A DNA stretch of 64,000 bases from Carposina sasakii (taxonomy: Eukaryota > Arthropoda > Insecta > Lepidoptera > Carposinidae), in the NCBI GenBank assembly GCA_014607495.2, contig CP053156.1, positions 15,126,015 through 15,190,014 on the forward strand, written 5' to 3'. How positions within the stretch are numbered: position 1 is the first letter of the stretch; each line of letters opens with the position of its first letter. A program made the translations under genes and the position numbers. The notes beneath the pieces were generated by a model. That model had not been told where the DNA came from, made no database searches, and worked only from the letters and a program-made list of their open reading frames with translations. Positions 47,908-64,000 of this stretch are shown in pieces.

Positions 47908-48153
47908 GGCGGCGATTACGGATAGGTACCCCTATCCGTAAAGGGATTCCCCCACGTAAAAAAAACTGGTGTGGGTAACATACAAATACTGAAATGTTGA
48001 ACAAGTACCATCGGAGTTATGCGACAGTATTATTACTCGCAGGAAATGTATTTTTACCCGAATGCGCGAAGGAAAGGAGTTGTAATGTGTTTAACAGCCT
48101 ATGTATGTATGTTTGTATGTTCCTTTGAAGCACTATATACAAACGCCTGGGCC

Positions 48154-48155
<2 letters not shown>

Positions 48156-48203
<48 letters not shown>
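48156..48203 (+). repeat. Poly(T) tract, 48 nt
   Basis: An uninterrupted run of T follows CCTGGGCCGA. It is probably the tail of a minus-strand retroelement or a slippage-expanded tract inside a dispersed repeat. Confidence 0.7.
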
Positions 48204-48206
<3 letters not shown>

Positions 48207-48756
48207 GTTTCATACGTCTATCTATTCCTCTTAATCCGACGAGTGTCACTAAAGAAATGACGTTAGTGAAAATCCAATATGGCGACTACTGGACTCCATA
48301 TTGTGAAAAATGAGAAAAAAAAAAGTCTACAAACTATATCAAGTGGGGTATCGTTGCATAGGTCGTCTTTCAACATTTTTCGATTCGAATGACCGTTTGG
48401 GATCTATATCTGTTTTAAGTTGTGTAACAACCATTCTCAACAACATATAAGTTTTTAAACAGCAACAAGACAAAAAGTTCTTGCTGCCGAGTATGTTTCT
48501 TGAAGCGTAGGAATCTATTATAATTAAAAAAATTCAAAAAGCCGACTGCGTAAAAAAGAACCAAACTATGTACATAATAAATAAATACTGAAAAGAAGAA
48601 AACCATGCACTTCGATGTCCGGTGGTCTAGAATAATATTATTATGGAATGAATCTTTTGAAGAAAATAAAATATTTTCTAATGGTGTAACATAACAACTA
48701 AACAGTCGGGAACCATTATCCGACAGCCAAGCAAATATTTCAATGGATCCTTGCAA

Positions 48757-48848
48757 AAATTCGTAATCCGAGTTAATTGACCCGATAGCTCAGTTGGTTG
48801 GAGCAAAAGCACGGTTTGCGAAGAGGTCGTGAGTTCAAATCTCACTCG

Positions 48849-48912
<64 letters not shown>
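48757..48912 (+). mobile_element. tRNA-like SINE with 62-nt T tail
   Basis: The leader AAATTCGTAATCCGAGTTAA precedes TGACCCGATAGCTCAGTTGG and GGTCGTGAGTTCAAATCTCA. It runs directly from ACTCGGG into a 62-nt T-run (48851-48912). It is the plus-strand relative of 26351-26561. Confidence 0.7.
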
Positions 48913-49646
48913 CGTCCTTAAATACTTACGTCATTAAATATTAGCACCCTTATATACTTGACGGAGATGGAGCGAAGGTGGGCGACAACGTTCGGTGTCA
49001 GGCATGGTCAAATATCCAAAATACCTAATTATAGATACCTAATTAAAGAACTTTAATTAGGTATCACAAATACTTCCACGGTATTAACACACAGGATTGC
49101 CAAGGTTATAAGGGATAACGTAGAAACGTGGCAAGTACACGACGGCTGATCGATACCAGTGCATAGCTCGACAGTCGCAACAAGAATCTACCCACAGCTC
49201 AATTCAAGCTACCATGTGGCCGTTCTAAAAAGTAACCTGTATTGTCCATGCCCAAGTGACAGTGACAGCTGCTCACTTGACGTTTCTAACTCCAAGAATT
49301 GAAAATAGGTGGCGTCGCAGATCCAACTACGACATAATTATGTCCTTATAAACTGACCTCCTTACGCACTAACGCCCCTTATACATAAATTGTTACGTTA
49401 TTGTTACTAGTTTACATTGGATTTTTTTTTTTTTTTTTTTTTTCGATGAAATTGATAATATTACTGCACACTAAAAGGTCAGACACCGGTGACCAGACAC
49501 ACTGTATACTTACGTCATTAAGTACTTACGCCCCTTATACATAAACTGTTACGATCGAGGAGTTGGCTCACTAGATGGCAGCATTTAAAATGAGACACTA
49601 AATCAAGAACGCGATGTCGTTTACTCGCAGTGTTTCTATAATATAA
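48913..49646. other. Subtelomere-proximal intergenic sequence
   Basis: No gene was recognised. A short motif (TTACG..ATTAA..AC.TACGCCCCTTATACATAAA.TGTTACG) recurs near 48930, 49365 and 49510. A 22-nt T-run lies at 49422-49443. Confidence 0.4.
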
Positions 49647-49826
49647 TTAGGTTAGGTTAGGTTAGGTTAGGTTAGGTTAGGTTAGGTTAGGTTAGGTTAG
49701 GTTAGGTTAGGTTAGGTTAGGTTAGGTTAGGTTAGGTTAGGTTAGGTTAGGTTAGGTTAGGTTAGGTTAGGTTAGGTTAGGTTAGGTTAGGTTAGGTTAG
49801 GTTAGGTTAGGTTAGGTTAGGTTAGG
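49647..49826 (+). repeat. (TTAGG)36 telomeric-type repeat array
   Basis: This is 180 bp of uninterrupted TTAGG, the insect telomere repeat, on the plus strand. It starts abruptly after ATATAA. It ends where the T-run at the 3' end of the TRAS-like element begins (GGTT followed by T5A). Confidence 0.95.
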
Positions 49827-50461
49827 TTTTTTTACTTTTAAAATCATTTATTTCACAAAAAAGGCTTAGATTAATATACAAAAGGAATTCCGGAAGCGAT
49901 TTGATACTTGCCGGCTGAGACACATATTCTTTAAATGTTTCTTACAATATTTGTTTCACAGTAATTATTAAGATAATATAATATTATTATCATTATTATA
50001 TATAGCGATTTACAACAAAGCGATACGCAAACAAACAAACAGACAATTTCACACAATCACAAAAGAAAAATACACTAAAATTATAAATGAGCTATAGTTA
50101 CATTAATGTTTAAACTTTATCCCCGCCACAAAGTGCGAGTGGAAATATTAGGATATTAGGATACAAAAGTACAAGAGATATCAAGAAATTAACACAAGAG
50201 ATTTTCACAATAAAATGAAATAACAAATAAAATTATATCAATGAAGATAACAAAAATGACTAAGACACAAAGACACAGAAATACAGGCACAATAGTGTAC
50301 AGTAATGAAGTTATGAAGGTGTAAAATACAATACAATACTCGGTGAGCAATTACAAAATTTTAAAACAAAACAAAACAAAACAAATCAAATACATATAAT
50401 ATTACAAAATATTGGTGGCAGGATTGAAGGCATAGTGCCTCCAGCAGTCGCGCCAATGAGT

Positions 50462-53400
50462 CTACGTTCCGTTAAAGGCTTTGAGCCTGGACATTATGTA
50501 GTTAATGAGTTCCAGGACCGACTTCAGGCTCGTCTCCTTGCCAAGGAGCTCCTCGACACAAAAGGGGGAGACCTCCAAATTTAGGCAAAGAGCCTTGTGG
50601 TCATGGATTTTAGGGCCGAATCTAGGGCACTCTTCCAGTAGGTGCTTCAACGTCTGCTTGGAAGCGTCATCGCAGGGGCACTTATCATCGCCAGTGATCT
50701 TGAATCTGTGCAGGTATTCTTTGTGAAATCCGTGCCCCGACAATACCTGAGTGAGATAAAACGATGGTGTTGTGGCCTTCCACAGCCTGCGTATACTCTC
50801 TATAGTGGGAAGCAGTGCCCTGGTGTGAGCGCCCTGTTGAGCGCTTTGATACCTGTGCTGCCATGCTTGGAGAGATTTCTGTTTAGCAGTTCGCTTGATA
50901 TAGGATATTGGGAAGAAGGCATAATCTGGGGCCTTTTTCAAGGAGGCTGCACTAAAGGCGGCGGCATCAGCTGCCTCATTACCTATGTCCCCAGAGTGTC
51001 CCCTAACCCAGTCAACAGCCACCTGTAGTCCCCTGTCGCGTAATTCCTTGATGACCTGAAATATTTCCGTAACCAGGGGATGGGTGTTACTCCTGTCTCC
51101 AATTGCCATGATGGAAGACATAGAATCCGAACAAATCTTGATTCTGGTGTTGGCCTCAATTGTCGCAGTGTCTCCCAGCCGAGAGGCCCACCTGCACGCC
51201 GACAGAATGGCGAACAGTTCCGCCTGAAAGACCGAGCAACAACTGTGCAATTTAAATTTTCTTGTCACCTTAGGCTGGAAACATACAAAAGCTGCCCCCA
51301 CCGATCCATCCTCCAACTTGCTTCCGTCTGTGTAGATGTTTGTACACGTGGACTCAAGACCAGGATCCGGCGAACACTCAAGCTCAAGTGCAATGGACTG
51401 ATTGGTGATATTGTCAGGTGCTTGCACTTTCTTAGGCATATTGATTCGTTCAGCTGGGTGGAATAGGTGTTTAACAGGAGTGGGTTTTTCTAGCTCGATG
51501 TCTTCCGGGAGATGGGCTCCACAGCTGCCCCGAAGTCTGGCCTCCTCGAAGCAGTGCACCTGTTTAACCTCCAGATCTAGTGGAAGAAAGTTTGCCAGTG
51601 CAAGCGCTGCATTAGTGGACACGGTGCGGAAGCTCCTTGTGGCTCTGATCGCGAAACCCCTCTGCACAGACTCCAGAGACCTGCGGACAGCCTTCCTGGC
51701 CACCACATGACCCCAGATCCCAGCAGCGTAGGTGATGGTAGGGACGATGACCTGTTTATAAATGGTGCTAATATTCTCAGGGTGAGCTCCCCAAGTCGGT
51801 CTGGAGTACATGCAGAGTTTGTTGAAGATTTTTGATGCCTTCCCAGTGACATATCTGACGTGTGAGGTGAAAGAAAGCTTCTGGTCGATGATGACACCCA
51901 GAAGCTTGAATTCATGCACGAAAGGCAAGATGTGGCCATCCATACGCAGTGTGGCCTGCTTAGCCTTGGGGGTGAATGCAACCACTTGGGTCTTGGCAGG
52001 GCCAAAGCCAAGCTTGACGCTTCTACCCCATGCAGAGATGGTGTCCAAGGCTCGTTGGTGACTCTCTGAAGCTCCTCTGCACTGCAGGCCGATGCGATCA
52101 GCAAAACGTCATCCGCAAAGGCCTGAACATGGCAGCCAGTAGGGAGGGCAGTGTCCAGCAGCTCGTCCAGAATGACATTCCATAACACTGGTCCGCATGC
52201 AGAGCCCTGTACACATCCCTTTGTCATGGTCTTGCTGACTCTTTCCCCAGCGTGATCCAAGATGACCTCTCGTTCCCTGAAGTAATTGCGGACCAAGCCA
52301 AACACATTCTTGGGGCATCCTATGTGCCTAAGCCTGTTAAACAACGCTGGCCACCAAGCGTTGTCGAAAGCTGCCTTTATGTCCAGGCTGACTGCCACGA
52401 CCAGCCGCCCATCGGCCCTGGCCGCTCGAACGACCCCGAGCGCCGCATCAAGGGCAGCGACGGTGTTTGTCTGCTCCTTGAATCCGTACTGTCTGGGATT
52501 AAGTTTGTTTGATTGGGCTGCCCTGTACGTGATCCTCTTGATGAAAAGTTTCTCGAACAGCTTCCCGAAGACAGGCAGCAAGCCGATTGGCCTGAAGGAG
52601 GATAAGGAGCTGTAGTCGGTCTTTCCAGGCTTAGGAATGATCCTGACGTAGGCTGATTTCCATTGGCGAGGAAAATATTGTAGCTCCAAGCAGCGGTTGT
52701 AAATGTCAGTGATCAGTTTGGGGTACGCCCGAGCGAAGACGAGGCATATGTCCGCCGTGAGGTGGTCCATGCCTGGGGCCCTTTTGGGGCTCATGTAGCC
52801 CAGTTGTTCCAGGACTTCCTCCTCGGTGAAGGGGGGGTCATCATGTCCGTTCGCCGAAGCAGATTCCATGCTGCTGAGTAGATGATTGCGTGTTTCGCTG
52901 TTTTGCGTATCCTCAGGATAAAAATGATCCAATAGAGCCCTGGCAGTCTCCTCGCTGGTCTGGGTGGTGTGATCACCCACCTTTAAGGTGGTGGGGGGGC
53001 GCCGGGGATTGGAGTCTCTGAGGAGCCTATTTGTGAGGGACCAGACGTTTTCGCCTGTCTGCATCTCGCAGAACTCTTTGAATTTTGCCGTGGACACGGC
53101 TCGGATCTCCTGAGAGTAGTGCTTCTTGAGACACCTTTGCTGTTCCAAGAGATCCTCTAGAGGTTGTCCCCCTTTCCTTGCCGAGTGTATTCTATGATGG
53201 ATCCGAATGACCTCTTCCTTCCTTTTATCCAGCCCTTTAGTCCACCAAGGCGCTCTCATTCTGACCCCCGGACGTTTGATCTTTAAGGATTCGTGGCAAG
53301 CGTATCTGATGACCCGCGTGAGTAGTTCCACCACTTCGTCGAGCCTCTCTCTAGTGCAGCAGTTCAGGTCTACGTCCAGCAACTCAGATTCAGACATTTC

Positions 53401-54183
53401 AGTGTGCAATGAGTCCCTGAAGCCTGACCATGCAGCCCTGTCGCATTTATAGAGAAAAGTGGTGGGGTTGGGATTTGCGTAAGGCAGAGGTGCTCTGCTC
53501 CCAGTCCTGATGCGAAATGTGACGGCGTTGTGTTGCGACGAAGGGCAGACTCTAGTGTCCACCTTCCAATCCACAATGCCGCTGACGATGGACCCTGATG
53601 CAAAGGTGACATCAATGATAGAGGCCCTGTCTCGACCGTGCGTGACCGTCTCGAATGTGGGAGTGTCACCTTCATTACAGCAGTACATGTCGCTGCCATG
53701 CATGACCTCCACAATCTCGTTTCCGCGTTTGTTAGTGGATGCGCTGTGCCAAATCGTGTTCCACCCGTTGAAGTCGCCTCCCACCACCTTGTGATGGTTG
53801 GCGGTTGCCTTTAGAAACAGGTCAATTCTGGATAGTGTGTTTCCCTCATCCTCGTCAGGCTCAACATAGGCGGAAGCCAGGTAGACGGTACATTTGTCGA
53901 TCTCGATGCCGACCACGCTGAGATTGGCCGTTGAATACTGTGAGACGCCCAAAATCCTCCCGCGACCAGCCTTGGCAAGGACACAGGCCTTGACCCGCCT
54001 GCCCTCAGAATGCTGGAAGATATCAATTCCCTGTATAGGGCGCATTTCGTTACCCGCACCGACATACGGTTCCGAAATTAATGCAATTTGGAAGTTACTT
54101 TCCATGAAATATATTAAAAATTCTTGTTGGCTGTTTTTGGAACGATCAACATTGCATTGTATGATGTTGATGAACTTATCCAT
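50462..54183 (-). pseudogene. TRAS-like ORF2: APE endonuclease, reverse transcriptase, RNase H, frameshifted
   Basis: ORF2 starts MDKFINIIQCNVDRS. Its APE-type endonuclease shows QCN, SEPY, GGDFNGWN, IIDVTF and SSQHN. The reverse transcriptase shows SFRPIGLLPVFGKLFEK, SLDIKAAFDNAWW, GCVQGSACGPVLWN and the catalytic FADD. A one-base loss near 52048-52052 then shifts the frame shortly after the RT core. The remainder (50462-52048) continues with the thumb region and an RNase H domain (YTDGS, AELFAI, CSDS, GNEAADAAA). It ends with a CCHC-like motif (CPCDD...H...CP). RNase H occurs in several I/R1-group lineages. The protein would nick the TTAGG strand and copy the element RNA there. Confidence 0.88.
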
Positions 54184-55729
54184 AATCGATGCGGGACTCT
54201 ATTTTGTTTCTCATGAAAGATAATGTTGGGCATTTGGGTGAGGTTGCCTCATGTTGAGAGTGTGTCTGTTTGTCGGCTTTAGAGGAGGGGGACTTTGTGC
54301 TGCTGTTGCTGTTGTGTCTGCTGATGCAGTTGGTGCACTTGGGTGTCTCCTGTTTGGAGGGGCATTGTGAAGTGAAATGGGTGGTATTTGCGCAGTGCGC
54401 GCAAGTAGGCTCATTCGCCGAGCATCTGCCCTGCAGATGCCCGAACTGCAAACACTTGTGGCACTGTATAAATGGAGAGAATGGCTCCGTGTGGACCCTC
54501 TGATAGTCAACGTTAACCCTCTCAGAGTCAATAATGGCCTTCCACACGCTAGGATTGGCCACTAAGACCGCGTTGTATAGTTTTTCATTGCGATTTTTCC
54601 TAATGAATCTTAAGGTCAGGTCGCTGTCCTGCGTGATTTTGCTGTCGATGTGTGGGTTTTGTTTTCTGATGATCGCAATTAGTTCCTCCGAAGGAACGTC
54701 AGTGTTAATCCCTTTGAGGATTGCCATGGGGCGCAATCCCCTAGCAGCCTCAGCTGTTACGAAAGAGGAGGACCCCAACTTGGAGAGAGCCTCATCTCTC
54801 TGTTGTGGTGTCTGGAACTCGACCCTCAGCTTATTATTTGATACAGTTTGCAGACTCGTTGGCGCATAATTACAATTTTTAAAACTAATGCTATCTCTAA
54901 AAGATTTAATTATATCTTGCTTACTATTAACCTGCATACATGGGGTGACTATAATTGCTGGTCTAGAAGAGACTGGTGCGGAAAGGGTCGCAGCTGTGTG
55001 GGAAGGGTAGCGTCGAGAACCGCTCCCTCCCCCTCCTGCGGCCGCCTGAGCGAATGTGGGACCGTTGAAACCGTTGAAGGTAGGGAAGCTTCTCACCTTG
55101 TTTATTTCCTCTCTGACACAGGCCAGAATATCCTGCTTAAATGATGATAGGTCTGCAGTAGTGGAGGACGCTATCTCGTTGATGGTGTGCGGTAGAGGTG
55201 ATGGAGGTGAAGGGGTTTGGCTGATGGTAGTCGCCGCCGCCGCCGGGGCTGTAGCCATTTTGCAGGCGGCCCGCCGGATTCCCTCTGCTGCCGCTACAAT
55301 TCTTCGCTTGTTGGATGCGGTGACGCTCTTTCCGTCATTTACAGCTGCAATAATTGTGTCAGCAAACGACTTGACCAGGTCGGTGAATCCCTCAGTAGTG
55401 GATACCTCCGCAGCCGCCTGGTAAAAGACCTCAATCTCTTCCTTTTCCTCCGCTTTTTGCGTTACTTTTGGTTTTTTAGGCTTCTTCCCGCCTCCGAGGG
55501 AGGTCAGGGGGCTGGGGGGGGAAGGTGACATAAATGGTGGGTCCTCGCAGCAATCCCCCCTCCCGTCTTGTGTCCCGGATTTCCGCTCCTCAGAGTATTT
55601 TTCCAAATTGGGGGGGAAGGGGGGGGTGTTTTCTGTGGGGGGGGTTGAAGGGGGAGGTCCTGGGTCTGATGGTATCAGCCCCGATTCTGCATCCCCCATA
55701 TCGGCTGAGTTGTTAGCACTTTTGTGCAA
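54176..55729 (-). CDS. TRAS-like ORF1 (Gag-like RNA-binding protein), 517 aa
   Basis: The protein has a Pro/Ser-rich N-terminus (about 1-80), an Ala-rich middle (130-180) and a region resembling an RNA-recognition fold (about 255-400). Zinc knuckles follow near the C-terminus: CHKCLQFGHLQGRC, CAHCANTTHFTSQC, and a third, looser Cys/His cluster starting CTNC. ORF1 proteins of TRAS/SART elements coat the element RNA and direct it to telomeres. The frame is intact. Its stop codon overlaps the ORF2 start codon (ATGGATAA on the minus strand, 54183 to 54176). Confidence 0.85.
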   Translation of the reverse strand: MHKSANNSADMGDAESGLIPSDPGPPPSTPPTENTPPFPPNLEKYSEERKSGTQDGRGDCCEDPPFMSPSPPSPLTSLGGGKKPKKPKVTQKAEEKEEIEVFYQAAAEVSTTEGFTDLVKSFADTIIAAVNDGKSVTASNKRRIVAAAEGIRRAACKMATAPAAAATTISQTPSPPSPLPHTINEIASSTTADLSSFKQDILACVREEINKVRSFPTFNGFNGPTFAQAAAGGGGSGSRRYPSHTAATLSAPVSSRPAIIVTPCMQVNSKQDIIKSFRDSISFKNCNYAPTSLQTVSNNKLRVEFQTPQQRDEALSKLGSSSFVTAEAARGLRPMAILKGINTDVPSEELIAIIRKQNPHIDSKITQDSDLTLRFIRKNRNEKLYNAVLVANPSVWKAIIDSERVNVDYQRVHTEPFSPFIQCHKCLQFGHLQGRCSANEPTCAHCANTTHFTSQCPSKQETPKCTNCISRHNSNSSTKSPSSKADKQTHSQHEATSPKCPTLSFMRNKIESRIDYG

Positions 55730-56585
55730 AAAAGTGGTGGGGGGGGGTTGAAAGTAGGGGGAATAGGTAGTCCACCCCTATGATCGCTTCTGATCAAGCA
55801 GAACGGAAATCACGTCAGATTTGCTCTAGGACGCTCCGTTCACGAGTAATTAAAAGAACCACGTTATTACGTAATGGCGGAAAGGGATAGGTGTGAGGAA
55901 AATATTCCTCAAAATTTGAAAATTTGAGATAGAGAGGCAAAAGAGGTGTCGAAAGCTAGGGCGGGAGATGCCCTAAGTACTGCTAATAAGGAAATGTGGT
56001 GTTCTCACTTTACTTTTTGCTCCAGAGTCCATAAAAAACTGCACAATATGAAAATAAACCGCTAATGGCGTGGTTTCCACAGCAGCACAATCAGAAAGTT
56101 TATTTTGATTACGGATCCATAAAGCGGGCGTAACGGCGATTCGATAGACGTATCGCACGTCTACCAGGCCCTCCTGGTTGCCAAGATCGCCTTTGAGGTT
56201 AGGTTCACGTGGATTCCATAAACTTGCTTCCAATGGGACAACCCCAGCTCGGAAAAATCCAACTGAGGTGTCAAAAGTTGCGTCTCACGGAGACGAATGT
56301 GATGCACAAATAAAAACAGGCACTTATGGCGACTGGGAGAGCGCCGCACGCACTTTTGTGTTAATTTCACCACGTGTTCATAGAAAAAATCACTTTTTTG
56401 ATCACAACTTTTTTGTTTATTATCCGATCTTCACAAACGATGTGTCCTCGAGTTGGTCTCGTTGAGACGCTTCTTTTGATGTATAGCACTTCACTCTACG
56501 TTAACTTTTGCCACCGTCGGGAATTTTTGCGACACAGAGCTCCGCGAAAACGATCCGTGCGGGGCGCCGGGTGGCGCGGAACTGG

Positions 56586-56651
56586 TTAGGTTAGGTTAGG
56601 TTAGGTTAGGTTAGGTTAGGTTAGGTTAGGTTAGGTTAGGTTAGGTTAGTT

Positions 56652-56654
<3 letters not shown>
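56586..56654 (+). repeat. Short (TTAGG)n array between two elements
   Basis: About 69 bp of TTAGG, with one 4-nt unit (TTAG) near 56646, separates the 5' end of the TRAS-like element from the poly(T) end of the ORF1-only element. Confidence 0.95.
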
Positions 56655-56698
<44 letters not shown>

Positions 56699-56711
56699 CT
56701 GCTGCTGGTCT

Positions 56712-56897
56712 CCCTGCCAATTACGTGCAGGGAATTATCTACTTTATCTTTGTCTACTGGGTAGTTTTGGACTTGACCGTTAAGCGGTCATACAATTTCT
56801 TTACTACTCTATACTATGCTAGGGCAAAGCTCATTTACATTTACTTCTAACTTTAAGTGTTCCTCAATATGTGTTGCGAGTGACTGGGCTTGTCACT
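56712..56897 (-). promoter_or_regulatory. 3' UTR hairpins of ORF1-only element, copy A
   Basis: Three short stems lie just upstream of the poly(A): HP1 56712-56732 (CCCTGC/GCAGGG), HP2 56775-56789 (GACCG, loop TTAAG, CGGTC) and HP3 56879-56897 (AGTGAC/GTCACT), given on the plus strand. The same three, in the same order, occur in copy B with compensatory changes. They are good candidates for reverse-transcriptase recognition structures. Confidence 0.75.
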
Positions 56898-57225
56898 TAA
56901 TCTGTGTGCTATGCTACACTAATCTAATGTTCTTTCTCAGGTTTTGGGACTTAGGAAGAGCAGATCTTTTTCTTTATTTTTACATTCCAACTTCTTATAC
57001 ATGGTTTTATCTTATATCTATTTATATTTTCTTATCTTATAACCTTATGATTAATTACTTTAATCTTTTTCTTTCCAGCATAATTCTTAATTCTATATAA
57101 TATAAGTCAGTATGAACGTTAATATTCGCCTTTGTATATATTATTGTGGGGATACATAACTGGTACTTACATCATACCATGTCATAATTTTGCTGGGCTT
57201 GGAATATAAACATATACATATGGAT

Positions 57226-57256
<31 letters not shown>

Positions 57257-57579
57257 GTGAAAATACATTGTTCCTAGTACTATACATTTTACTTATTTAA
57301 CATCTTTACTTTAAACTTTTATATATATATATAAATTATATATAGGTAAGTTCAATTACTTGCTACTTATTTCGTAAATAACTTAGTTGCTACTTATTTT
57401 ATAGTACTGCTTTGGTTGCGAGCAAGGCAATTTTTCCTTAATTATGTTTATGACTTTAGCAGATCACTCATCTTAGTCACTAAGCTGAGGCTGTTTTAAT
57501 AAAAACTTATTTTAGTGCTTGGTCTAAACGTGTATTATTCTAAGGTCTTTGCCTGTCCCGCTTCCACGTCTCAGAACTC

Positions 57580-59055
57580 CTAACTGTACGCGACCATGGA
57601 TCTGGCCAGTGCGTCCCACCTCATCCTTATAGGACAGCAATCACTAAAGGCGTTGTGGTCCGCCCCGGTCAGTCCTGATCGCGTACAGTTTGTGCAGGAG
57701 GGTGGTGAGCCCGCCAGCCAGTCGGGACACTCCGCCCGCATGTGAAGCCCGCCACAGTGACTGCATCTATCCCCTGCCTGACCGCAGAAACGGCGGCCGT
57801 GTCCGTATCCGAGGCACCTCGAGCATTGGACCAGGGGGGACTGATCCTCCACCCTGACCCTCTGCAGGTCCACAAACACGGACCCAGCCACCGTCATGCG
57901 TTGCCAAACCTTGGGCGAGACGCTCACTACGACGTGCGCCACATGCGGGTTTCTCGTCCTCTTCCGGTACCGGACCTCCATCTCCTCCTCTCCACTGTCG
58001 AGAGAGTCAAACACAGCCGCGTTCTGGTTCCGAAGGGCGGTTGTGATGTCATCATCACTGTTGCACTGCAACACGCCCTTCAGAACCACCAACGGGTTCC
58101 TGTTCCTGACCTCCTCCACAGTGAAGAGATCTCCTACCTTGCCTAACCTACTCTTAACTTTTTCACGCTCCTCCTTAGTCCTACAGCCCATAATAATCTT
58201 GTTTCCTTTTGCGCGACGCACTCGATCTATTTGAACACCACCGCTTTTTGCGTCAATCACTTTTTTGATCTTTTGTAGCACTTCGTCACTCGTATCCGTT
58301 TCAATAGTAGAGCTTACTACGACGGAGTGCAATGAGTCATGTGCCGGTTTCTTCGGTGACTGATGTTGTGGAGGGCCGGCCACCACGCTGGCATACGTAA
58401 TCTCTTTCTGCTGCAGCACTCTGCCTTGTTCTGCGATCGCTGCCTTTACTTCATCCATTTTTGTGGCGTTCAGTTCAAGGATCTTGCTGTGCTCTTCAAT
58501 CTTTTCTTTGAGGGCCCTGACTTCTCTTTTTGCCTCACTTGCCTGACTCTCGACTTTTTGCCCCATTGAGAGTCTTCTCTGGGTCAGGCGCCTCTCGTCC
58601 TCCGACTCTTTGACTATCTTGAATAGGGTGTCAAGGGCTGTTAGCACCCCCTCCTTTATATCGGTGCGTATGTTTCTGCCCCAGCCGATGAGGGCTTTCG
58701 CCGTTTTTACGGTTTTTGTAGCTTCGAATATACGAGTTTGCGTGGCGGCCCTCGCGACTGGGAACTCGGTAGGAACATACTGCTCCGCCTCGTAGTCATA
58801 AAGCCCGTCGACATCAACGCTAGCGAGGGATGGTCGGTATACCGGTCTCTGCGCTACCTCCGACTCCTCCTCCCGGTATCTATATTGCTCCTCATTTCCT
58901 CCAGAGGGGCCCGGGGTGAAAGTAAGCAGTTCCGGTGGAGGTGGCCTTGTCGCTGGGGGTGTCGACGCTGACGACGGCTTCGCCTTCGTCCTTGTCCGCT
59001 GAAGCTCCTTTGAAGGTTTCGGTCTTGAAATTGGAGTGCGCGCGCCAGGCATCAT
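57580..59055 (-). CDS. ORF1 (Gag-like) of the ORF1-only element, 491 aa, intact
   Basis: The N-terminus is Pro/Thr/Ser-rich. Residues of about 145-220 form a charged coiled coil (QKVESQASEAKREVRALKEK, IEEHSKILELNATKMDEVKA). An RNA-recognition-like region follows (about 240-400). Three zinc knuckles end the protein: CSRCLGYGHGRRFC, CSHCGGLHMRAEC and CTNC...DHNAFSDC. This is the ORF1 architecture of TRAS/SART elements, but it is only distantly similar to the ORF1 at 54176-55729. The start chosen is the first Met of MMPGARTP. The frame is open throughout, suggesting selection or recent activity. No ORF2 follows. Confidence 0.85.
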   Translation of the reverse strand: MMPGARTPISRPKPSKELQRTRTKAKPSSASTPPATRPPPPELLTFTPGPSGGNEEQYRYREEESEVAQRPVYRPSLASVDVDGLYDYEAEQYVPTEFPVARAATQTRIFEATKTVKTAKALIGWGRNIRTDIKEGVLTALDTLFKIVKESEDERRLTQRRLSMGQKVESQASEAKREVRALKEKIEEHSKILELNATKMDEVKAAIAEQGRVLQQKEITYASVVAGPPQHQSPKKPAHDSLHSVVVSSTIETDTSDEVLQKIKKVIDAKSGGVQIDRVRRAKGNKIIMGCRTKEEREKVKSRLGKVGDLFTVEEVRNRNPLVVLKGVLQCNSDDDITTALRNQNAAVFDSLDSGEEEMEVRYRKRTRNPHVAHVVVSVSPKVWQRMTVAGSVFVDLQRVRVEDQSPLVQCSRCLGYGHGRRFCGQAGDRCSHCGGLHMRAECPDWLAGSPPSCTNCTRSGLTGADHNAFSDCCPIRMRWDALARSMVAYS

Positions 59056-59369
59056 TTTTATGGAGGTGGAAGTAATGCTTATTACACTCTAACACGGTCT
59101 TAAAACTAGTATCCCCACAGAAGACTGTAGGGGATAGTCAGTACACCAAGTGTGTCAATACGGAATAAAACAATGAAAACCAAATAAACCAAAAAACAAA
59201 ATAAACAATAAGAAAAAAACTTAAATCTAATATCCTGGCAGAATACTGCACAGGATGTCACTTAAAACTAAGGTCGCCGGCAGAGGAATAAAGTCAAATT
59301 GAAAATTTTGACTCTTCCAGAACTCTACGTAGAGTCTGGAGTCCAAAAAGCTAAAAGGGTCCCGGTCCG

Positions 59370-60205
59370 GCGAGTCCAGCCGCGAAAACCCCGACTCTCT
59401 ACGACCACCCGGGCCTGAGTTGTTGCCGCCGAAAGTTTTCCAAAATGGCGGCCAAAGTCCGCCAAAATGTCAAAAAATCGACAGCTCTCCTCCCAGTGGG
59501 CGCAGACAGTCGTTGCTCCTTGGCGTGAGTCCACCTGGCCGGTCCGCGTCAAATCCGAAAAATTTTCCTGAAAATCCTGAAGGGATTTTTCAGGCGTGTC
59601 AGAATCACCTGCCAGCGACTAGACGAAGGCCGAAAACCCCGTCTCTGTGCGACGTCTGGTTCGGAAGCCACGGGTCCGCAACGTAAGCGTGGCACAGTGG
59701 GATATCCCCAGTACCACGGGATCTCACGGGGGATATTGCGGTAAAACCGAAATATCTACCACAGCTCCTCCCCCAGTAGGCGCGAGAAGTCGCGGCCACC
59801 TCGTCGGGCGTTCACCAGACCAGGCTTACGTGCCTCCTGAAAAATTCCTGAAAAATATTTTTTCAGGATTTTCAGGTGCAAACCACTGACCTCAACGTGG
59901 CAAAGCCAACGGTGAAAACCCGACCCCACGCGACGCCTGGTTTAGGAGCTACGGCCCCGCGAAGTAACCGTGGATTGGGGATCTCCCCCTTGCCACCTCT
60001 GAAAAGATATTGCGAATATTGGAAATCCCAATAGCTCGGCCGGTATGGCACCAAAAAGCTCAAGCTTGGGCTTCCCAAATTCGTCTCGCTGAGACCTTTC
60101 GATCCTGATACTCCGTTTTCCTGAAAAGACGCTTTCAGAATTTTCTGTCCAGAATTGCTGTCCTGAAAACGTTGTAGCTTCCGAACCAGTAGCCGCAGCG
60201 GCTTC
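59370..60205 (-). repeat. Imperfect ~250-285-bp tandem repeats in the element 5' UTR
   Basis: On the plus strand, anchors such as AAAACCCCGACTCTCTACGAC recur at 59383, 59633 and 59916. CAGCTC...CCCAGT.GGCGC recurs at 59482 and 59762, and GACG(T/C)CTGGTT at 59651 and 59932. Each unit carries a palindromic CCTGAAAA...TTTTCAGG cluster. A weaker third unit follows to about 60200. Tandem monomers in a 5' UTR often act as promoters in LINEs. Confidence 0.7.
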
Positions 60206-61254
60206 GTACAAAACTTATCCTAGTCCTAAAACTAAATGCGACACAATGTAACAACGCGCTTTGCTCTAACGCTTCAGGGGGCAGTTTTCAGTTTTTCCCC
60301 TGACTATATTTCAGGGGATACTGCTCCTACCACCCCGTGTGGGGTATCAAACAAAGGTCTCCTCAAGGCGCTTTACACTGTGTCTTTGTAAATATTTTAG
60401 TGATAGCCCGGTTTTTATAAACAATAAACACTATAACATTTACCAAAGCTAAATAAAAATATAAAAATTAATTTTAAAAATCCGGAAAAGTTTCTAATAT
60501 TCTAAATTAAATCTGCTCTATTTTTCCGAATAAAAAATATTTTCAGGAGTACTACCGTTCAGGAGTTAGAATTTTCCCTGAAACTAAAACTATGAATATT
60601 ATCTAAACTTACAGTCATTAAATTAAAATTTATATTGCACTGAGTAGTTTGTCACCAACACTACATGGATCACTTTTCAAAAGTATGTCTCACTGATCTG
60701 TTTCAGAAAATATCAGCCGCTGAAAATTTTAACGATTTTTGAGGCCTTGTAATTCTTTCATTTATCGTCCGATTTTCGTTCTGAAAGTTTTGCCGAGCTC
60801 GTGCCCGCGGGTACTACAAAACCCTATACTTGGATTGCGGCGGTAGGCTCAAACGGCGATTTTCGATGAAAACAACAAAACTTTCAGGCTTATCGCTCAG
60901 CCGTCTTCAGCGATATGAAGCTGAAACTTCTTAGGGACAAACTTCCGGTTGACAGCTCTCCAGTGGTGTGAAAAAAAGTGGGGGTTGTGGCGACTAATCG
61001 CGCGCCGTAGCCCGCCGAAAGTTTTACCAACCGCAAATAGCGGTTTTTTGCGTGGTAATCACAGTTAACTTTCACTTTTCACTTTTTTGAAACTATCACT
61101 GGATAGCGCTCGTCAGCGCGCTTCTTTTGAGCCTATTTCGGCCACTGTGGCTGCACTTTTTCTATTTTTAGCGAATTTTTTGCGCGTAGCTTCGCAGACA
61201 AAATCGTCCGGCAGTTCCCACGAGTGTTAGGGACACTTGGGGCAGCGTCACTGG

Positions 61255-61973
61255 TTAGGTTAGGTTAGGTTAGGGTTAGGTTAGGTTAGGTTAGGTTAGG
61301 TTAGGTTAGGTTAGGTTAGGTTAGGTTAGGTTAGGTTAGGTTAGGTTAGGTTAGGTTAGGTTAGGTTAGGTTAGGTTAGGTTAGGTTAGGTTAGGTTAGG
61401 TTAGGTTAGGTTAGGTTAGGTTAGGTTAGGTTAGGTTAGGTTAGGTTAGGTTAGGTTAGTTAGTTAGGTTAGGTTAGGTTAGGTTAGGTTAGGTTAGGTT
61501 AGGTTAGGTTAGGTTAGGTTAGGTTAGGTTAGGTTAGGTTAGGTTTAGGTTAGGTAGGTTAGGTTAGGTTTAGGTTTAGGTTAGGTTAGGTTAGGTTTAG
61601 GTTAGGTTAGGTTAGGTTAGGTTAGGTTAGGTTTAGGTAGGTTAGGTTAGGTTAGGTTAGGTTAGGTTAGGTTAGGTTAGGTTAGGTTAGGTTAGGTTAG
61701 GTTAGGTTAGGTTAGGTTAGAGTTAGGTTAGGTTAGGTTAGGTTAGGTTAGGTTAGGTTAGTTAGGTTAGGTTAGGTTAGGTAGGTTAGGTTAGTTTAGG
61801 TTAGGTTAGGTTGGTTAGGTTAGGTTGGTTAGGTTAGGTTAGGTGTAGGTTAAAAAAAAGGTTAGTTAGGTTAGGGTTAGGTTAGGTTTAGGTAGGTTAG
61901 GTTAGGTTAGGGGGTTAGGTTAGGTTAGGTTAGGTTAGGTTAGGTAGGTTAGGTAGGTTAGGTTAGGTTAGGT
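61255..61973 (+). repeat. Degenerate (TTAGG)n array, about 720 bp
   Basis: This is mostly TTAGG with scattered variants (TTAG, TAGG, TTTAGG, TTGG, GTGTAGG, a short A-run near 61852) that concentrate toward the right end. Such decay suggests an older or subterminal tract, or error-prone assembly of a repeat. Confidence 0.93.
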
Positions 61974-62028
<55 letters not shown>

Positions 62029-62042
62029 GCTGCTGCTGTTTT

Positions 62043-62239
62043 CCCTGCCAATTACGTGCAGGGACTTACTTACTAGGTGTACATTATTTACAGTAGTGTT
62101 TTAATGTTTTTGTGATCGTTAAGCGATCCTTCAATTTTAATGTACTACATTATATATAAAATGCAGAATACATTTGCTTGTTTTCATTAATAAGAGGTGT
62201 ACCCTAACAGTGTGGAGCTAGCGATTGGGTTCTATCGCT
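62043..62239 (-). promoter_or_regulatory. 3' UTR hairpins of ORF1-only element, copy B
   Basis: HP1 is at 62043-62063 (identical to copy A), HP2 at 62114-62128 (GATCG, loop TTAAG, CGATC) and HP3 at 62220-62239 (AGCGAT/ATCGCT). Differences from copy A fall in paired positions and keep pairing. Confidence 0.75.
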
Positions 62240-62844
62240 TATTCTGTTCAGCTACTTTTCATTCTTTTGTTTTTACTGAGGATTGGATTCAGGGATGCAG
62301 CTCTTTAACTTTATTTACTTCTTATACTACTTCTTATTACTATATCTATATATAAATTTTCTTAGATCACTTACTTGATGCTATGTTTTTTCCTTATCTT
62401 TCTATACATAACAACTTGATACTTAATTTAATCAACCTTAAGAATTACATTCTATTGCTACCATTTTCTTTTTCTTTTACATTTATGTCTAGCAGCGTTT
62501 GTTTCAGTTGTGCTTTTACCAATATATTTTACCTTAATAATATTATCTAAACTTATCCTATATAACTCAGTTATATATGTAAGTTTATTTAATTGCCTTA
62601 TTTATTTATTTATTTATTTATCTTATTAAAAACTTTAGTTCTTACTTATAGCACTTGCAGGCTACATCGGAGTCCTGGTACGGTCGGTCTTGCTGTTTTA
62701 CTGTCTAGATTTCCTTCACGATTTTACACTTATTCAATAAGTATAGTTGCTTTTTCAAAACCTCTCGCATGGGAATCTCGGTTGGACTCATTTTGGCTGT
62801 TTTTGACCGCCGCATCAGACCTCGTCCGTAGCTTTTACAGATTC

Positions 62845-64000
62845 TCAACTGTAAGCAATCGAGGATCTGGCCAATGCGTCCCACTTTTGCCTTATAGGGC
62901 AGCAGCCACTAAAGGCATTGTGGTCGACCTTGGCCAGCCTCGAGCGCGTACAGTTGATACACGCTGGAGGGACACCCGCCATCCATCGGCGCAATCTGCC
63001 CGCATGTGAGGCCCACGCAATGGCTCTGCATCTCTCCTCTGAGTGGCTGCAGAAACGGCGGCCGTGCCCGTAACTCGAGACATTTCGAGCATTGGACTCA
63101 GGGGGGATTGTGTCCTCCACCCTGATCCTCTGCATGTCAACGTATACAGACCTGCCGCCGTCATCCTCCTGCCACACCTTGGTCGACACTTGGATCACGA
63201 TGTGCGCCACATGCCGGTTTCTTGTCCACGCTTTCGATAGCGGACCTCCATCCCGCTCTCCTCGCTTGCTGGGAGTCAAACACAGAGTCGTTTTGGTTCC
63301 GAAGGGCGTTCGTGATGTCCCATCACTGTTGCTTTGCAACAACGCCCTTCAGAACCACCAACGGGTCCCTGTTCTTGACCTCCTCAACCGCCAGATTAGC
63401 TGCTCTTTTTTTTCCAGTCTTTTCTTTCACTTTATCCCTTTCCCTATTACTGCTGCAACCCATAATACCTTATTCCCCTTTGCTTTACGCACCCTTTCTA
63501 TCCTAATTCCCCCGTTCTTCGCATTCACAACCTCTTAAGTTTCTTCAGGACCTCCTCACGGTAATCAGTCTCCGTCTTCGATGTGATTATCACAGAGTGC
63601 AGCGACTCGAGCCATAGTCCTCGGTTTTTCCGGGCGTCTGTCGCCGTGATGGTCCAGGCGTATTCTGCAGAGACTGTGGTAGGCCGGCCACCACCTGGCG
63701 TACTTTGTCCTCGTTTCGCTGCAGGATTCCTGCCCTGTTCGGCGATCGCGGATTTCACCTCGTCCATCTTTGTGGCGTTTTTCTCCAGTATCTTTTTATA
63801 TCTCCTCTAACTTTTTCTTTGAAGGGCCCTGATCTCTCTATTGGCTTGTGCTAGCCTGGCTCTCCACTTTCTCACCCATTGATAGTCTTCTCGGGTCAGG
63901 CGCCTCTCTTCCTCCGACTCTTTTATTAGGTGAAGAGGGTGTCGAGGGCTGTTTACACCCCCTCCTTTATGTCGGTGCTATGTTCCTGCCCCATCCGATT
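62845..64000 (-). pseudogene. ORF1 (Gag-like) of copy B, frameshifted
   Basis: Homologous to 57580-59055. The frame 62845-63342 covers the C-terminus (TRNRHVAHIVIQVS, VYVDMQRIRVED, GHGRRFC, CINCTRSRLAKVDHNAFSGC, ending WDALARSSIAYS), with the first and second zinc knuckles damaged. The segment 63525-63767 matches the region around MDEVKAAIAEQGR. Homology to the coiled-coil and upstream region continues to the window edge in shifting frames. Several indels mean no full-length protein. The C-terminal ending WDALARS..AYS is shared with copy A. Confidence 0.8.

Follow-up and report, generated by a model that had tools for sequence, protein, structure and literature searches.

The window analyzed here, a stretch of 64,000 nucleotides (nt) from the lepidopteran Carposina sasakii (C9:15126015-15190014 in an assembly of 399 Mb and 31 contigs), ends with the last base of contig C9 and carries two copies, A and B, of a retroelement that encodes a Gag-like protein in its first open reading frame (ORF1) and is devoid of a second one (ORF2). 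Together with further copies in the genome, they are best interpreted as a Gag-only family that resides in (TTAGG)n arrays, the telomere repeats of this host, whose ORF1 is kept under selection and which likely borrows the endonuclease and reverse transcriptase (RT) of TRAS-type elements with a similar predicted terminal hairpin. We assign this reading a probability of about 0.8.

Going inward from the end of the chromosome, one meets copy B, TTAGG repeats, copy A, TTAGG repeats, and a TRAS-type neighbor termed the C element, and all three elements have their 5' ends facing the chromosome end. The individual features are, in window coordinates:

56655..61252, minus strand: copy A, a complete ORF2-less element with its 5' end at 61252 and TTAGG on both sides
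59056..61252, minus strand: 5' untranslated region (UTR) of copy A, about 2.2 kb
57580..59055, minus strand: ORF1 of copy A, 491 amino acids (aa), open and Gag-like, its sequence showing three CCHC-like knuckles
56699..57579, minus strand: 3' tail of copy A, 881 nt without the poly(A), no ORF2
57308..57357, minus strand: predicted hairpin SL1 of copy A
56712..56732, minus strand: predicted 3'-terminal hairpin of copy A, with CAGCAGCAG and poly(A) next in the RNA
56655..56698, minus strand: poly(A) of copy A, read as poly(T) and joined to TTAGG
61253..61973, plus strand: TTAGG array separating the two copies, with many errors beyond about 61454
61975..64000, minus strand: copy B, tail and partial ORF1, ended by the contig end
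61975-62025: poly(T) of copy B
62543..62590, minus strand: predicted SL1 of copy B
62043..62063, minus strand: predicted 3'-terminal hairpin of copy B
56584..56654, plus strand: TTAGG array separating copy A from the neighboring ORF2-bearing element
49829..56582, minus strand: the C element, which has an ORF1 and, spread over two frames, an ORF2; given as context and outside the family

The first-pass annotation of this stretch had described two diverged copies in TTAGG repeats, both with poly(A), an ORF1 with three knuckles and a tail of 819-881 nt without ORF2, and had credited copy A with both ends and an intact ORF1 of 491 codons. The sequence bears out both descriptions, the tail of 819 nt being that of copy B. 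The ORF1 of copy A has no match in Pfam. A comparison of the A and B ORF1s gave a ratio of nonsynonymous to synonymous substitution rates (dN/dS) of 0.17, with 335 of 370 codons usable, and the two tails are similar beyond chance even when their last 60 nt are removed (0 of 200 shuffles reached the score). Among 21 longer ORF1-containing relatives, 17 with an RT domain and two with an endonuclease only, there was no match to the 5' region of A or to the tails of A and B at E <= 0.1. The TTAGG array in front of copy B contains 31 edits in 520 nt (6%) at 61454-61973, 26 of them indels, as compared to 0 edits in 182 nt at 49647-49828 and 1 in 200 nt at 61254-61453. As the array before copy B is this rich in errors, the frameshifts of this copy are not evidence of decay and are probably consensus errors. 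The same stretch indicates that consensus quality is low where contig C9 approaches its end.

Searching the whole genome at the DNA level returned 98 matches, 71 of which were used to check the distance between the 3'-end match and the end of ORF1; those left out include five 3'-end rows of 44-57 nt that are mostly poly(A). For each of the 18 longer 3'-end matches, ORF1 ends at the distance seen in copy A. Two full-length rows exist besides, namely copy A and C12:16479-21162, whose ORF1 is interrupted by stops and shifts. In fetched DNA, 28 copies with an ORF1 end and poly(A) were mapped on nine contigs, and 27 of these consist of a 5' UTR, ORF1, a tail of approximately 0.75-0.96 kb and poly(A), with no ORF2 (the tail of copy C20a measures about 818 nt by alignment to copy C9m5). 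The 28th copy, C1z (C1:19068-19072 kb), shows 14 nt of its subfamily's tail after the ORF1 stop, then an insert of about 3.5 kb without similarity to ORF2, and then the rest of the tail. A full-length open ORF1 was read in 12 of the 28 copies. Head-to-tail arrays with short intervening TTAGG stretches are found at the ends of C28 (five copies in 23 kb) and C1, and further copies occur at the ends of C9, C12, and C3 and within scaffolds. A mid-contig array of ORF2-less copies at C9:7487322-7518523 (about 7.5 Mb) extends up to a gap of 500 N and would be either a scaffolding error or an interstitial telomere. Contig ends and N gaps adjoin the arrays, and frames are broken in several copies situated at contig edges. 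These broken frames and the error-rich sequence near the C9 end are what could be expected if the ORF1-to-tail junction were a product of assembly collapse, yet the junction recurs in 27 copies that represent several diverged subfamilies on nine contigs, which leaves this explanation a negligible chance.

Genome-wide searches at the protein level scored the best candidates only (87 of 438 for ORF1 and 76 of 3291 for RT), and the resulting counts are therefore lower bounds. They yielded 91 matches to ORF1 and 81 to the RT of the closest tail type. Fifteen of the 91 ORF1 rows do not reach residue 485 and were left out of the test of RT distance (two included rows also fall short), and 37 of the 81 RT rows were used; the remaining 44 show at most 50% identity, except for three pieces at 75-81% adjoining used rows (C8:6939449, C4:5636, and C5:15941203). 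Seventy-four ORF1 matches extend to the C-terminus, 61 of them A-like and 13 more distant, where “A-like” denotes at least 53% identity to the ORF1 of copy A, a threshold set by us between the two groups, and tree membership covers 12 copies. A partial ORF1 row at C5:15929203 (61% over the C-terminal part), whose DNA shows an ORF2-bearing element, was grouped with the distant ones. Among the RT matches found, none lies downstream of any of the 61 A-like ORF1s as its own. An own RT is located 1570-1794 nt downstream of 10 of the 13 distant ORF1s, at 1570-1577 nt in eight of these, and no RT row among the matches found accompanies the distant ORF1s at C3:16458, C26:9347211, and C21:2165205. Seven A-like ORF1s do have an RT row within 7 kb, which in each case belongs to the next element: at C13, C30, and C23 a distant ORF1 lies in between, at C15:13482223 the next ORF2-less copy does, and at C15:13477542, copy A, and C8:12670808 the assignment was made by reading the DNA. 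A genome in which most copies carry an ORF2 between ORF1 and tail, named beforehand as the outcome that would contradict the proposed family, was looked for in these genome-wide searches and not found. Twenty-nine A-like ORF1 matches are full length and free of stops.

The family's ORF1 is related to ORF1 of the R1 clade of non-long terminal repeat (non-LTR) elements, and the named relatives among those listed are all lepidopteran, most rows carrying no name. In a tree of 44 ORF1s, the 12 intact ORF1s of ORF2-less copies form a single clade (support 100/100), the sister of which is the ORF1 of an ORF2-bearing element on C12 of the same genome (96/97). A FastTree of 153 rows is concordant for the 10 ORF2-less ORF1s known at that stage. 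The highest listed database match to the ORF1 of copy A, P0090 (55% over 62% of ORF1), is placed outside this clade by the tree, no match above 51% identity is present among the 120 listed for a second in-clade ORF1, and viral and bacterial genome collections contained no related locus. Within the limits of the protein searches, the clade would thus be known from this genome only.

The dN/dS values below 1 that had been anticipated for ORF1 were indeed obtained: four of five in-clade sister pairs show 0.09-0.16, the fifth exhibits no amino acid change, and the pooled value is 0.14. All in-clade pairs with a computable dS remain at or below 0.22, and dS exceeds 1 for many of them. ORF1 is under purifying selection within the ORF2-less clade, and the combination of low dN/dS and deep dS indicates that this selection is long-standing in lineages without ORF2. 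The C-terminal end of ORF1 differs from that of its relatives. The residues AYC terminate 119 of 120 listed database relatives as well as the ORF1s of the ORF2-bearing elements on C12, C5, C20, and C13. Among the ORF2-less copies, the ORF1 end is readable in 24, and just one of these has AYC. In the C12, C5, and C20 elements, the ORF2 frame opens within the last part of ORF1, and AYC was likely lost through release from this ORF1/ORF2 overlap.

A predicted hairpin, then a GCAGCAG-like motif and finally poly(A) close the tails of the ORF2-less copies. The terminal hairpin has a stem that varies in sequence while its pairing is kept, as all 17 chosen sequences fold, including three from ORF2-bearing elements. 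Relatives that combine a similar tail end with an ORF2, which the first-pass annotation had suggested to look for, are present in the same genome: a similar terminal hairpin and a GCAGCA motif occur in the ORF2-bearing elements at C5, C12, C15, and C20, and a profile of the tail end matches those at C15, C12, and C5 with E values of 4e-30 to 4e-26, the C5 and C12 elements being 99% identical copies of one type. The terminal 21-mer of copy A occurs 56 times in the genome with at most one mismatch as compared to 0 times for a reversed control, and the terminal hairpin has 0 matches in viral contigs. Occurrences of the 21-mer at C2, C10, C18, C24, C27, and elsewhere may represent dispersed or truncated copies.

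The second predicted hairpin, SL1, starts about 190-270 nt past the ORF1 stop and is predicted to fold in 21 of 21 copies. A model of SL1 matches all 28 ORF2-less tails (27 at E < 0.002 and C1d at 0.04) and, additionally, one strongly truncated copy on C1. It matches none of the five ORF2-bearing elements searched (C5, C12, C15, C20, and the C element of the window). As the model was built from these tails, the figure of 28 out of 28 is partly by construction, which does not apply to the absence from ORF2-bearing elements. In a test of the SL1 arms, the number of own pairs lay above all 2000 shuffles, even with wrong 3' arms for C28a, C1a, and C15c lowering this number; the RNAalifold model of SL1 (R1) uses five inner pairs only.

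These results bear on two other origins for the ORF2-less copies. Independent internal deletions of ordinary TRAS-like elements would have left dead remnants, an idea that gains something from the differences between subfamilies in the middle of the tail. Such deletions would not be expected to produce a single ORF1 clade, similar tail lengths, an SL1 shared by the tails and missing from the ORF2-bearing elements searched, 29 full-length open ORF1s or a dN/dS of 0.14 within ORF2-less sister pairs, and we regard them as highly improbable, in line with the initial assessment. The strong selection on ORF1 would also be compatible with a protein kept by the host for its telomeres, independent of element mobility. 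This is very unlikely, because the copies under selection are numerous and dispersed and possess element ends, poly(A), and predicted hairpins that are conserved, a pattern expected for a mobile element.

The insertion site connects the family to a specific group of enzymes. At 15 of 22 5' junctions, including that of copy A, CCTAACC is joined to AGTGACGCTG; of the others, five show a single additional base separating CC from AGTG, one has TC for CC and one (C12) has a non-telomeric flank, all counts being made by eye from 22 rows. Of 38 poly(A) runs listed, some of them non-terminal and some belonging to ORF2-bearing elements, 28 continue into CCTAA. TRAS elements are described as inserting between C and T of (CCTAA)n and SART elements as inserting in the TTAGG strand, opposite to TRAS (PMC7265360). 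Cut site and orientation of the family are of the TRAS type. By this site definition (PMC7265360), the junctions and orientation rule out SART-type insertion.

Open ORF2 frames exist in relatives within the genome. The C20 relative has an ORF1 of 494 codons and an ORF2 of 1243 codons, both open (lengths stop to stop), and the C5 relative an ORF2 open over 1252 codons together with an ORF1 in two frames. Endonuclease, RT, and RNase H domains are present in both ORF2s, and among solved structures the TRAS1 endonuclease is the best match to either of them (1wdu; E 1.4e-70 and 1.3e-76). For SART1Bm, the ORF proteins are reported to mobilize in trans an RNA carrying their 3' UTR (PMC7265360). Taken together, the TRAS-type site, the relatives with a TRAS1-like ORF2 and the SART1Bm precedent make mobilization by a TRAS-type ORF2 protein the best explanation. 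In this model, the element RNA would be bound by its own ORF1 protein, while a TRAS-type ORF2 protein would recognize the terminal hairpin and the poly(A), nick the G-rich strand at TT/AGG and reverse-transcribe the RNA at this position. The resulting insertion would be flanked by TTAGG on either side and would point its 5' end at the chromosome end. Structure, selection and relatives therefore support the earlier proposal of an ORF2-less family that uses the enzyme of another element, whereas we infer the enzymatic step itself, as well as the folding and recognition of the RNA and any role in telomere length. The family size and common origin, the selection test, the TRAS-type site, the ORF2-bearing relatives, SL1 and mosaicism (see below) go beyond that proposal.

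The C element next to copy A was considered as the enzyme donor and rejected: its endonuclease is TRAS1-like, but it lacks the terminal hairpin of the family and its ORF2 is open in two overlapping frames of 868 and 528 aa (window 50462-55729).

Identities of 99.2-99.6% (gaps uncounted) were measured for four pairs of copies whose members lie on different contigs; where the neighbors were read, they differ within a pair, in keeping with recent movement. Sequence exchange clearly also occurs among the copies. Copies C1a and C9m4 are 99% identical over the first 2035 nt and 74% identical in ORF1. In the comparison of C1:19077764-19082349 with C9:7505272-7509855 and in other pairs, near-identity of the 5' regions over roughly the first 2035 nt goes along with strongly different ORF1s, and the mosaic boundary recurs at about nt 2030-2060, ahead of ORF1.

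Several observations weigh against a family mobilized by TRAS-type enzymes. 5' regions and tails were exchanged between ORF1 lineages, and C28 and C1 have two similar pairs in common (C28d/C1b and C28a/C1d) that could stem from exchange. The middle parts of the tails differ widely between subfamilies, and the tail-end profile has no match in the C20 element. A remote RT could have escaped the RT search with its 76 scored candidates of 3291. Moreover, no ORF2-bearing element with an ORF1 inside the ORF2-less clade, and hence no direct parent comparable to TAHRE, was found: the ORF1s of the C12 and C20 elements fall outside by the tree, that of C13 by 37-42% identity to four in-clade ORF1s, and the remaining ones by 39-51% identity to that of copy A. 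Finally, a telomerase RNA-binding domain match is located at C24:4873581-4873763 in an open frame of 562 aa. This match is weak and above the cutoff (28.2 bits vs. 25), and it implies that the telomeres need not depend on the elements.

Since the copies are mosaic, recombination between telomeres, or template switching, must contribute to their history. It is conceivable that recombination or gene conversion of telomeric arrays, rather than retrotransposition, is the main route by which copies spread between chromosome ends; the 5' regions of up to 99% identity beside ORF1s of 74%, the exchanged tails, the head-to-tail arrangement and the two similar pairs on C28 and C1 would all be accommodated. 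However, poly(A) of variable length at the TRAS cut site and near-identical copies with different neighbors, where these were read, argue for retrotransposition, and selection on ORF1 is not needed under exchange alone, which makes this scenario unlikely as the dominant one. A different possibility is that an autonomous master belonging to the clade is missing from the assembly and that the ORF2-less copies are its satellites. With contig ends and N gaps beside the arrays and searches that give lower bounds, such an element could be hidden in gaps or telomere ends, but no A-like ORF1 has an RT of its own among the RT matches found, and with the deep in-clade divergence (dS > 1 in many pairs) the master would need to have been rare all along. 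We consider it quite improbable. Mobilization in trans by TRAS-type relatives with a similar tail end remains the preferred reading.

Among known systems, a similar architecture is that of HeT-A, the textbook Gag-only telomeric element of Drosophila, whose 5' end faces the chromosome end. HeT-A attaches to chromosome ends without nicking and has its promoter in the 3' UTR. With HeT-A and its relatives TAHRE and TART, the present family shares the status of a Gag-only telomeric non-LTR element, head-to-tail arrays, ORF2-bearing relatives in the same genome and a selected Gag. Unlike HeT-A, it is a relative of TRAS-type elements, occupies a nick-type site within TTAGG repeats and coexists with a telomerase domain match, and no parent with an in-clade Gag, as known from TAHRE, was found. 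The nearest TAHRE-like candidate is the sister ORF1 with an ORF2 at C12 and C5 (one type), outside the ORF2-less clade. Descent from the Drosophila telomeric elements was rejected, as the named relatives are lepidopteran and the clade is sister to a TRAS-type ORF1; no direct sequence comparison with HeT-A was made. HAL1 (half-L1) of mammals is likewise an ORF1-only derivative of a two-ORF non-LTR element, and differs in being non-telomeric and of another clade. TRAS itself (TRAS1 of Bombyx mori, R1 clade) has the target site, orientation, poly(A), and an ORF1 with CCHC knuckles in common with the family, as well as the TRAS1-like endonuclease of the ORF2-bearing relatives in this genome; the absence of ORF2, the extra predicted hairpin SL1 and the changed AYC end set the family apart. 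SART shares the specificity for telomere repeats, the R1-clade affiliation and, as described for SART1Bm, proteins acting in trans (PMC7265360). The literature on HeT-A presents it as a Gag-only element with proposed partners (PMC5537684; PMC4700185), and its origin is termed unclear (PMC5537684). Among the titles and abstract openings listed in searches of open-access papers, none reports an ORF2-less, Gag-coding TRAS or SART family.

A second, independently evolved HeT-A-like system might be considered, in which a Gag-only RNA bearing its own conserved hairpin SL1 predominates among the telomeric retroelements of a lineage with TTAGG telomeres and is copied in trans by a minority of TRAS-type elements, resulting in a split between template and enzyme as in Drosophila and in telomerase. 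We put forward this wider view tentatively and hold its chances to be slightly below even. A TRAS-based parallel would show that loss of pol with retention of Gag can recur at telomeres, and it raises the question of what a telomeric Gag does for its own RNA that the Gag of the enzyme donor does not. The paired, sequence-variable terminal hairpin, present in one form in Gag-only and ORF2-bearing elements, would be a candidate recognition signal. Retrotransposition assays for SART1 exist in insect cells (PMC7265360), and they render the idea tractable.

At the gathering cutoff, Rfam returned nothing for window positions 48000-64000 beyond one tRNA gene (48779-48912, 42.5 bits), which leads straight into a poly(T) of 62 nt. 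A gene model of Ostrinia nubilalis (P0121) comprises an ORF1, an ORF2 and then a second ORF1 ending in AYS, and perhaps joins two neighboring elements.

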